From positions 372,001 through 436,000 of the forward strand of contig NZ_RCCC01000001.1 of the NCBI RefSeq assembly GCF_003663825.1: a DNA stretch of 64,000 bases, in the 5' to 3' direction. Source of the DNA: Acidovorax sp. 106 (GTDB lineage: Bacteria > Pseudomonadota > Gammaproteobacteria > Burkholderiales > Burkholderiaceae_C). Shown piece by piece: positions 25,140 through 36,008 of the stretch. The position numbers and the translations under genes are program-made. Each line of letters starts with the position of its first letter. Position 1 is the stretch's first letter. The notes under the pieces are model-generated. The model was given only the letters and a program-made list of their open reading frames with translations, made no database searches and was not told the DNA's origin.

Positions 25140-25211
25140 CCGTTCGGGCTGAGCCTGTCGAAGCCCGGGCGCCTTTTGCCGACAGCCCTTCGACAGGCTC
25201 AGGGCGAACGG
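25140..25211. repeat. REP-like repeat B, inverted pair
   Basis: Two copies of the element CTTCGACAGGCTCAG...GAACGG face each other (25140-25163 and 25188-25211) around 24 bp. This makes a long cruciform-capable palindrome in the 254-bp convergent gap between the GDYXXLXY gene and yihY. Single or paired copies of the same element recur near 34-36 kb. Confidence 0.8.
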
Positions 25212-34170: not shown

Positions 34171-34243
34171 CCGTGCGCCCTGAGCTTGTCGAAGGGCCTG
34201 CATGGCACACGCCCTGGCTTCGACAGGCTCAGCCTGAACGGTG
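34171..34243. repeat. REP-like repeat B, inverted pair between xylB and the fructokinase gene
   Basis: GCGCCCTGAGCTTGTCGAAG faces CTTCGACAGGCTCAGCCTGAACGG across about 28 bp, the same architecture as at 25140. A third single copy follows at 34325. Confidence 0.78.
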
Positions 34244-34324: not shown

Positions 34325-34351
34325 GGCTTCGACAGGCTCAGCCCAAACGGT
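34325..34351 (+). repeat. REP-like repeat B, single copy
   Basis: GCTTCGACAGGCTCAGCCCA followed by AACGG, in the same 263-bp gap between xylB and the fructokinase gene. Confidence 0.75.
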
Positions 34352-34399: not shown

Positions 34400-35917
34400 T
34401 CAGAACTGCGCTTGCAGCGCCGGGTACAGCGCCACATAGCGGGCATAGCGCTCGGCCAGCAGGGCTTGCTGGGCGGGCTGCGGATGGAAGGTGGCATCGG
34501 CCGCCAGGGGTTGGCACCAATGGGCTTCGTCGCCACCGCAGGCCATGGCGGCCAGGCGGGCTGCGCCCAGCGCGGCGGCAGCGTGGGCGCCCTCGGGGCG
34601 CTGCAGTGGAGTGCCCAGGGCGCTGGCCAGCAGCTGGGCCCAGGGGTTGCTACGGGCGCCACCGCCGACCAGGGCCAAGGGGCTGGAGTGGATTTCAGTG
34701 GTGGAACGGGGACGGGCTTCGACACGCTCAGCCTGAACGGCTGGGGTGGAACCCGCAGAGCGCATGGCGTTAAGGCCATCGAGCAAACCAAAGCCCACGC
34801 CTTCCATCACGGCATAGGCCAGGTCAGCGGCGTCGTGCTCGGCCCGCAAGCCCATGAAGACGCCGGTGGCAGCGGCGTTGTTGTGCGGGGTGCGTTCACC
34901 ACTCAGGTAGGGCAGAAACAGCGGTGCCTGGGCCTGACGCGCGGTGGGCAATACGCCGACTGCGGCAGACAGCTGGGCCTCGTCGCCCCGGCCAGTCAGG
35001 CGGGTGACCCAGCCAAAGGCGCTGGCCGCGCTGAGCATGACGGACATGTGGTGCCAGCGCTGGGGTAGCGCGTGGGCAAAGGCGTGCACGGCGCGCTCGG
35101 TGGCGGGGGCAAAGGCATCGGTCACCCGAAACACCACGCCCGAGGTACCCAGCGACACAAAGCCCTGCCCGGCGGTGCGCGCGCCCACGCCCACAGCGCT
35201 GGCGGCGTTGTCGCCCGCGCCTGCGGCCACGACCACGCCTTCGCCCAGCCCCCAGCGGCGGGCTACGTCACCCAGCAGCGTGCCGGTGGGTGCATTGCCT
35301 TCGGCCAGGGCGGGCATGTGCGAGGCGTCCAGCCCGCAGGCCTGCAGCATGGCCGGGCTCCAGGCGCGGGCCTGCACGTCCAGCCACAAGGTGCCGGATG
35401 CATCGGACATATCGCTCACCGCCGTGCCGGTGAGCTGCAGCCGCAGCCAGTCTTTGGGCAGCAGCACGGTGCGGATTTGGGTGAAGACTGCGGGCTCATG
35501 CGTGCGCAGCCACAGCAGCTTGGGGGCGGTGAAGCCGGGCATGGCGAGGTTGCCGGTGATCTGGCGCGAAGTGGGCACGGCCTGCTCCAGCAGCGCACAT
35601 TCCGCACTGGCGCGGCCGTCATTCCACAAGATGGCGGGGCGCAGCACCTGGCCCTGCGCGCCCAGCACCACCGCACCATGCATGTGGCCCGACAGGCCGA
35701 TGCCACACACCTGGGCCCAGGCGATGGGCATCTGCGCGCGCAACTGGGCGACGGCGGTCTCGACGGCAACGAGCCAGTCGGCGGGGTGCTGCTCGCTCCA
35801 GGTGGGCTGGGGACGGTACTGACGCACGGCGGCATCGGCCGTGGCGATGACGGTGTGCGCTTCGTCCAGCAGCAAGAGCTTGACGCCGGAGGTGCCTAGG
35901 TCGATTCCGAGGTACAT
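34400..35917 (-). CDS. xylB: Xylulokinase (MtlY-like) carrying an in-frame REP-derived insert
   Basis: A 505-residue FGGY-family kinase that phosphorylates D-xylulose, the product of arabitol oxidation, to xylulose 5-phosphate. N-terminal MYLGIDLGTSGVKLLLLD, catalytic region GLSGHMHGAV, and C-terminal ALVGGGARSNPWAQLLASAL. The TTG five codons upstream of the chosen ATG is disregarded. Between the helix ending LNAMRSAG and ALVGGGARS, at residues about 391-408, sits VQAERVEARP. This is the translation of a REP-like repeat B copy and makes the linker some 15-18 residues longer than usual. The active-site segments are otherwise intact. Confidence 0.92.
   Translation of the reverse strand: MYLGIDLGTSGVKLLLLDEAHTVIATADAAVRQYRPQPTWSEQHPADWLVAVETAVAQLRAQMPIAWAQVCGIGLSGHMHGAVVLGAQGQVLRPAILWNDGRASAECALLEQAVPTSRQITGNLAMPGFTAPKLLWLRTHEPAVFTQIRTVLLPKDWLRLQLTGTAVSDMSDASGTLWLDVQARAWSPAMLQACGLDASHMPALAEGNAPTGTLLGDVARRWGLGEGVVVAAGAGDNAASAVGVGARTAGQGFVSLGTSGVVFRVTDAFAPATERAVHAFAHALPQRWHHMSVMLSAASAFGWVTRLTGRGDEAQLSAAVGVLPTARQAQAPLFLPYLSGERTPHNNAAATGVFMGLRAEHDAADLAYAVMEGVGFGLLDGLNAMRSAGSTPAVQAERVEARPRSTTEIHSSPLALVGGGARSNPWAQLLASALGTPLQRPEGAHAAAALGAARLAAMACGGDEAHWCQPLAADATFHPQPAQQALLAERYARYVALYPALQAQF
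34713..34740 (+). repeat. REP-like repeat B inside the xylB coding sequence
   Basis: GCTTCGACACGCTCAGCCTG followed by AACGG matches the intergenic copies except for one base (ACACG for ACAGG). It is read in the xylB frame without a stop. Confidence 0.8.
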
Positions 35918-35980
35918 GGGGTGGTTATGCAATGGGTCAGCCCAAGAGGGCCGAGGCGGTTTGAAAGCGAATGCGGCGGG

Positions 35981-36008
35981 GCGGCTTCGACAAGCTCAGC
36001 CCGAACGG
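35981..36008 (+). repeat. REP-like repeat B, single copy upstream of xylB
   Basis: GCTTCGACAAGCTCAGCCCG then AACGG lies in the 157-bp gap between the AraC regulator gene and xylB. Confidence 0.75.

Follow-up and report, generated by a model that had tools for sequence, protein, structure and literature searches.

The xylB gene, encoding a xylulokinase, lies on the reverse strand of the 64,000-nucleotide stretch of Acidovorax sp. 106 DNA analysed here (the window), where its reading frame opens with a TTG codon and offers an alternative ATG start (MYLGID) at 35917, five codons inside the TTG ORF. The predicted product scores 531.8 bits against the xylulokinase model TIGR01312, thus passing the cut-off of 380.25, and contains both the FGGY_N (PF00370) and FGGY_C (PF02782) domains; against the narrower model NF011601 it scores 517.7, below the threshold of 912. 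A first-pass annotation of the window had claimed that a REP-like repeat is read in frame inside this gene, contributing the peptide VQAERVEARP, and that the same repeat is otherwise intergenic in the window. Both statements were borne out (Table 1): a 20-base pattern allowing up to 3 mismatches retrieved 5 matches in the window, where 0.01 are expected, and none of the four copies other than that of xylB was listed as genic in a codon-usage scan.

Table 1. Coordinates of the xylB features, of the repeat copies in the window and of further genes carrying the repeat (window positions unless a genome position is given).
Feature	Position	Strand	Remarks
xylB, xylulokinase ORF	34400-35932	-	510 aa from TTG
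Linker, DGLNAM to LVGGGARS	34673-34762	-	30 codons
REP core GCTTCGACACGCTCAGCCTGAACGG	34716-34740	+	inside xylB
REP-derived peptide VQAERVEARP	34709-34738	-	residues 399-408 of the 510-aa ORF
45-bp insert	34700-34744, equally 34708-34752		37 bp containing the REP, together with one of the two 8-bp repeat copies
Direct repeat GGTGGAAC, copy 1	34700-34707	+	target-duplication-like
Direct repeat GGTGGAAC, copy 2	34745-34752	+
Same repeat, 3' of xylB	34217-34236	+	not listed genic; pattern match, codon-usage scan
Same repeat, 3' of xylB	34326-34345	+	not listed genic; pattern match, codon-usage scan
Same repeat, 5' of xylB	35984-36003	+	not listed genic; pattern match, codon-usage scan
Same repeat, further window copy	25145-25164	-	not listed genic; pattern match, codon-usage scan
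DUF5682-family gene	L225:2289-5336, genome 1549288-1552335	-	Pfam E 5.9e-90
ABC-transporter ATPase, REP-pair tail	L226:1530-3152, genome 4522029-4523651	+
DCC1-like protein, REP-pair tail	L227:2080-2688, genome 3078079-3078687	-

At the genome scale the 17-base core of the repeat, with at most 1 mismatch, has 138 matches in 4.88 Mb, the reversed control yielding 0, and occurs in two main variants (65 GACAAG and 70 GACAGG, plus 3 others) within the extended consensus GCTTCGACARGCTCAG(C/G)(C/T)GAACGG; in many of the genomic copies a C-rich flank precedes the core. Twenty-four head-to-head pairs account for 48 of the 138 sites, with a spacing of 27 bp in 23 of them, and the copy in xylB is single rather than part of an inverted pair. 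The family is therefore short, present in high copy number, dispersed, mostly extragenic and prone to form inverted dimers, as REPs in general are. An RNA-level role of the copy in xylB was considered and rejected, its fold being little or no better than that of shuffled sequences (z of -1.09 and -0.29 for this unpaired REP in the xylB message), and an Rfam search at the same place returned nothing credible (best E 0.61).

Within the xylB linker two exact 8-bp repeats bracket 37 bp containing the REP, with a period of 45 bp or 15 codons, and the same 8-bp repeat and 45-bp period are found in the related alleles L010 and L011. In-silico removal of the 45 bp keeps the frame open and leaves the 15-residue linker RSAGSTTEIHSSPLA, which equals in length that of the REP-less allele L012 (RAAGGQGRDAEAALA, 15 residues) and comes near that of L013 (13 residues), the letters of the three being unlike one another past the first few. 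The proposal that the added peptide represents an insertion has thereby acquired a delimited unit whose removal preserves the frame. At the xylB site, which was chosen beforehand, the 8-bp repeat looks like a target duplication. A direct repeat of at least 8 bp between the 25-bp flanks was detected at 1 of the 138 core sites, namely that in xylB, where randomly paired flanks produce 0.006 such repeats per site and about 0.8 are thus expected across the 138, so that this repeat may also be due to chance or to local microhomology. Direct repeats were not seen as a general trait of the family across the 138 sites. Nor did 12 other REP sites aligned with genome G026 (one of them with G045) delimit a clean unit; at some of them the REP is present in both genomes, and at others the intergenic DNA is mostly unalignable across the gap.

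To place the insert among relatives, 47 genomes of the genus were searched, of which 45 matched, and the best 30 loci (L009-L038, one per genome, and one genome per species throughout) were aligned, the weaker or partial xylB matches of the remaining genus genomes being excluded. Linkers in these 30 alleles span 13 to 40 codons, and eight of them are REP-derived or probably REP-derived. Three alleles, the window's own (L009), L010 and L011, share a 30-residue linker that has the REP valine in position 9 (form A). Another five (L015, L020, L029, L025 and L026) have a 40-residue linker with the matching residue at position 21 (form B); here the offset of the REP 25-mer does not vary among the five, whose identities are 25, 24, 22, 21 and 18 of 25, and its orientation and reading frame are those of form A, but it lies elsewhere in the same loop. 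Because their length and offset match form B, L025 and above all L026 are called decayed REPs. The other 22 alleles are REP-less, with linkers of 13-22 residues, nine of them at 19, and a single one of 35 (L033). The mapping of gaps around the linker on close homologues, which had been suggested as a check, placed linkers of 15 and 13 aa in the REP-less genomes G045 and G027.

A more distant set consisted of the best 80 of 585 relatives from named genomes, of which L039 and L040 belong to the genus alleles and the other 78 (L041-L118) are 50-67% identical; these include L093 and L112, named Acidovorax yet carrying distant xylB-type genes. Linkers were located by script in 74 of the 78 and measure 11 residues in 66, counting three misfires (32, 32 and 70) that were read as 11 by eye, and 8-15 residues in 8; those of L046, L100 and L118 are short by eye, and that of L045 was not located. 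The REP peptide, whose occurrence in distant relatives had been named as a finding that would speak against an insertion, is absent from the linkers located in 77 of the 78. Taken as a whole, the reading put forward by the first-pass annotation is supported, its refuting checks, so far as they were run, not having overturned it, with the insert common to three species and a second REP-bearing form in five others.

With regard to the protein product, the first-pass annotation held that the core motifs were unaffected, and this agrees with an alignment of 40 xylulokinases that contains the window's own sequence and in which the invariant columns fall outside the insert. For xylB minus the linker, dN/dS was 0.07-0.11 in 13 out of 13 carrier pairs (within form A and within form B), showing that REP-bearing xylB genes are under purifying selection. 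An AlphaFold2 model of the 505-aa form, built from the 40-sequence alignment, reached a mean pLDDT of 89.4 and a pTM of 0.89, and pLDDT fell below 50 in two segments only, 339-341 and 391-409 in the 505-aa numbering, the latter being the REP linker, which sits between a helix (363-389) and a strand (414-417). In this model the loop is predicted to be disordered and the remainder to adopt a confident kinase fold. The top Foldseek matches, 5vm1 and 2itm, are both xylulokinases, and these closest solved relatives have gaps at the insert in the alignment. Therefore, as judged from sequence and model, the enzyme appears to tolerate 15 added amino acids in a floppy loop and is presumably active.

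The repeat is also translated in other genes of the same genome. The codon-usage scan of the 138 sites, trained on 28 window ORFs probably including xylB and liable to miss decayed copies, gave 13 interior rows, of which those of xylB and of the DUF5682 gene were kept, and 9 rows in which a gene reads into a REP, of which four were kept; in two further rows of the latter sort a stop falls inside the core. Together with protein reading, this places at least 7 of the 138 cores within the translated part of four genes, a lower bound because weaker scan rows were left aside: one core in xylB, two in the DUF5682-family gene, and one inverted pair each in the genes of an ABC-transporter ATPase and a DCC1-like protein. 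The DUF5682 product reads three in-frame REP units, two as VQAEPVEA and a variant one as LRQAQGER; the corresponding site holds one unit in G045 and one decayed unit in G026, the protein of the window's genome (G000) being 57 aa longer there. The ABC-transporter ATPase owes its 18-residue C-terminal tail, as well as its stop codon, to the inverted pair, and 2 of 19 orthologues (G000 and G029) have this tail. A C-terminal tail of the DCC1-like protein, derived from an inverted pair as well, is found in G000 and G045, and the G026 protein ends earlier, without it. Five cases were followed (xylB forms A and B, DUF5682, ABC and DCC1), and in each of them translation of the first REP unit gives V-x-A-E-x-V-E-A; in the pairs, the second unit yields ASTGSA and a stop. 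V-x-A-E-x-V-E-A is one of five stop-free frames of the REP consensus, and the five-way agreement has p 0.0016 at even odds, in a set that is small and non-random.

The history of these alleles was approached by comparing xylB with rpoB. In the rpoB tree of 27 genomes G000, G026 and G046 form one clade (95/92), with the REP-less G045 next to it (94/97); the carriers of form A thus make up one rpoB clade, and a single insertion therefore suffices for this form. Three of the five form-B carriers (G034, G043 and G030) yielded no rpoB match and are missing from that tree. The xylB tree, from which the linker columns were excluded, tells another story, rejecting a clade of L009, L010 and L011 (p-AU 0.008), a clade of the five form-B rows (p-AU 3.7e-60) and a clade of all eight carriers (p-AU 5.5e-09); a clade of L015, L020 and L029 is not rejected by the xylB data (p-AU 0.117). 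L014, L016, L019, L021 and L022 group at 100/99 in the xylB tree, and their genomes are scattered over that of rpoB, where the forks concerned are in part weakly supported. The disagreement of the two trees suggests that species exchange xylB alleles. The patchy REP distribution, for which parsimony on the xylB tree counts 7 changes, 4 of them forced by well-supported branches, would then be best explained by alleles being replaced and REPs decaying. No clear tract emerged when mosaic break points were sought around the xylB linker.

We consider it likely that a mobile-type repeat was inserted in xylB of three species and is tolerated in a permissive loop. The REP-like element would have entered xylB once, either in an ancestor of three related Acidovorax-type species or in a single one of them. 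It would have landed in the loop that joins a long helix to the strand leading to the LVGGGARS motif, read as V-x-A-E-x-V-E-A among the five stop-free REP frames, and would have left the 8-bp direct repeat with a gain of exactly 45 bp (15 codons); that mobility caused this insertion is what we infer. Elsewhere in the genus a second, separate REP insertion would have occurred in the same loop, lengthening the linker by 21 codons over the common form, and this second REP would then have persisted, decayed or yielded to REP-less alleles via recombination. Most probably the REP peptide is a tolerated passenger of neutral effect, because the insert leaves the predicted fold and the conserved residues intact and purifying selection acts on the gene. 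It is tempting to go further and to regard the REP as a mobile peptide cassette with one preferred frame, and the xylulokinase loop as a recurrent landing site with at least two gains and allele exchange between species, but this broader proposal is a tentative one that we would rather doubt than endorse.

Forms A and B quite probably reflect two insertion events: their REPs occupy different places and are followed by different sequence, only form A has the direct repeat, and the lengths do not match (a 45-bp insert in form A; 63 bp more than the common 19-aa linker in form B). The competing view, a single ancient REP insertion preceding both xylB groups, from which the 30-aa and 40-aa linkers descend while others were trimmed, decayed or lost, could account for the orientation and frame shared by both forms and for the similar bases before the core (GGTTCCACCCCAGCCGTTCAGG versus GGTTCGACCACCCCCGTTCAGG), and parsimony on the xylB tree permits one gain followed by several losses. 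These preceding bases, however, partly match the C-rich flank of many genomic copies, the REP valine occupies linker residue 9 in one form and 21 in the other, the post-REP sequences look unrelated by eye, and the 8-bp direct repeat is confined to form A. In addition, as the eight-carrier clade is rejected by the xylB data, a single origin needs many losses or replacements, and we thus regard it as unlikely.

Two insertions into a tolerant loop, as we favour, do not by themselves predict how few third-position differences the linker of form A shows. In its 90 bp, third-position differences number 0 between L009 and L011 and 1 between L010 and L011, where outside windows of xylB average 6.5 and 6.2, and these counts are lower than in any outside window; tests on synonymous codon differences gave 0.011 and 0.042. 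Such a low third-position difference is not predicted by plain tolerance and could be taken as a sign that the peptide was recruited and kept by selection for enzyme function, be it stability, interaction or regulation. In line with such recruitment, the core is kept between L015 and L020 where the flanks differ (1/25 versus 22/95, p 0.04, uncorrected for ten pairs), and the first unit uses one frame in the five cases followed. On the other hand, total linker differences are 3, 2 and 3 for L009-L011, L010-L011 and L009-L010, values as low being found in 8%, 2% and 46% of outside windows, respectively, so that conservation of the form A linker, based on three sequences, is marginal and could be explained by alleles shared through recombination or by constraint on the DNA; like such shared alleles, repair from other REP copies would mimic conservation. 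Moreover, the peptide also decays in form B (to LQVELAEAR and VDAGLVVS), the core differs less than the flank at p<0.05 in only 2 of 10 form-B pairs, and 22 of 30 alleles do without the REP peptide, all of which makes recruitment improbable. Growth of the linker by slippage or local duplication, with a coincidental REP likeness, is barely credible: REP-less loops also vary (13-35 aa), attesting to other length changes, but the 20-mer is expected 0.01 times per window even at 3 mismatches and the REP is met again, with its offset unchanged, in five other species. Nothing was found in favour of a pseudogene or sequencing artefact, an equally remote option given the full-length open frame, the insert in three separate genomes, dN/dS of about 0.1 and a score above the TIGR01312 cut-off.

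Rickettsia palindromic elements (RPE) have reportedly been found in protein genes by Ogata et al.; their hosts are obligate intracellular alphaproteobacteria, and their sequence is unrelated to that of the repeat described here. In xylB, as for RPE, the insertion is in frame and missing from homologues. RPE are palindromic, with host proteins thought to be functional, in the account given by Di Nocera et al. 2013 (PMC3733652). The likeness to Rickettsia elements put forward in the first-pass annotation thus holds for the in-frame insertion but is not particular to those hosts, since the same paper, on intragenic REPs of the GTAG/CGTC superfamilies, reports such insertions from numerous free-living bacteria, two Xanthomonas species among them with different REPs at nearly the same recB site, considers neutral insertion into linkers or loops and cites the Rickettsia elements. 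As described there, GTAG/CGTC REPs resemble our repeat in being short, high-copy, mostly intergenic, often arranged in inverted pairs and in few cases in frame; they differ from it in their ends, terminal GTAG or CGTC motifs being absent from our consensus, where the nearest match is CGTTC at one end, and here the insert has been delimited and traced across species. Neither Acidovorax nor Comamonadaceae appears as a word in the main text of that paper, figures and additional files aside. BRE, a dispersed repeat of Bordetella and Comamonadaceae including Acidovorax, some copies of which lie wholly in coding sequences, is about 90 bp long with 1-29 copies per genome according to PMC3110155, as against 25 bp and 138 copies here, a distinction drawn by description only. 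The enterobacterial RU-1/2/3 of Delihas 2007 (PMC2759123) are small mobile intergenic repeats also read in proteins, and differ from our repeat as MITE-like units of 103-168 bp in other bacteria. In either orientation the REP core was not found in the literature text searched, which sequences printed in figures or supplements would escape, and among publications on REPs in Acidovorax and on intragenic REPs, covered mostly by titles and abstract openings, no title reports it. In-frame REPs are therefore already known, and the repeat family and the xylB case appear unreported in the literature searched. The latter captures a conserved metabolic enzyme of a free-living bacterium being remodelled by a mobile-type repeat, and living species between them still show likely states before and after the insertion, another insertion into the same loop and copies in decay. 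It opens to direct test the long-standing question of whether palindromic repeats read in frame serve proteins as raw material or are carried along as neutral passengers, and provides a natural map of an insert-tolerant loop of xylulokinase.

Small dispersed REPs, often in inverse pairs, are thought to be mobilised in trans by TnpAREP/RAYT proteins, as outlined in PMC8266576. In contrast to those systems, our consensus has no GTAG tetranucleotide, and the single match to PF01797 (Y1_Tnp, RAYT-like) in the genome, G000:C1:870375-870659 on the minus strand (locus L224), has no REP core within its 3,285-bp locus. A RAYT as the mover of the repeat thus finds no support in the one Y1_Tnp gene found, which lacks flanking copies, and no transposase for the repeat was identified. 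Across the 47 genomes of the genus, some of them fragmented drafts, core copies range from 0 to 161 per genome and do not track, by eye, the presence of the xylB insert. Downstream of xylB a variant unit, GCCCTGAGCTTGTCGAAGGGC, at 34177-34197 stands head to head with the standard unit at 34217-34236, and such mixed pairs of variant and standard units also occur at two aligned genomic sites, 397148 and 1532961.
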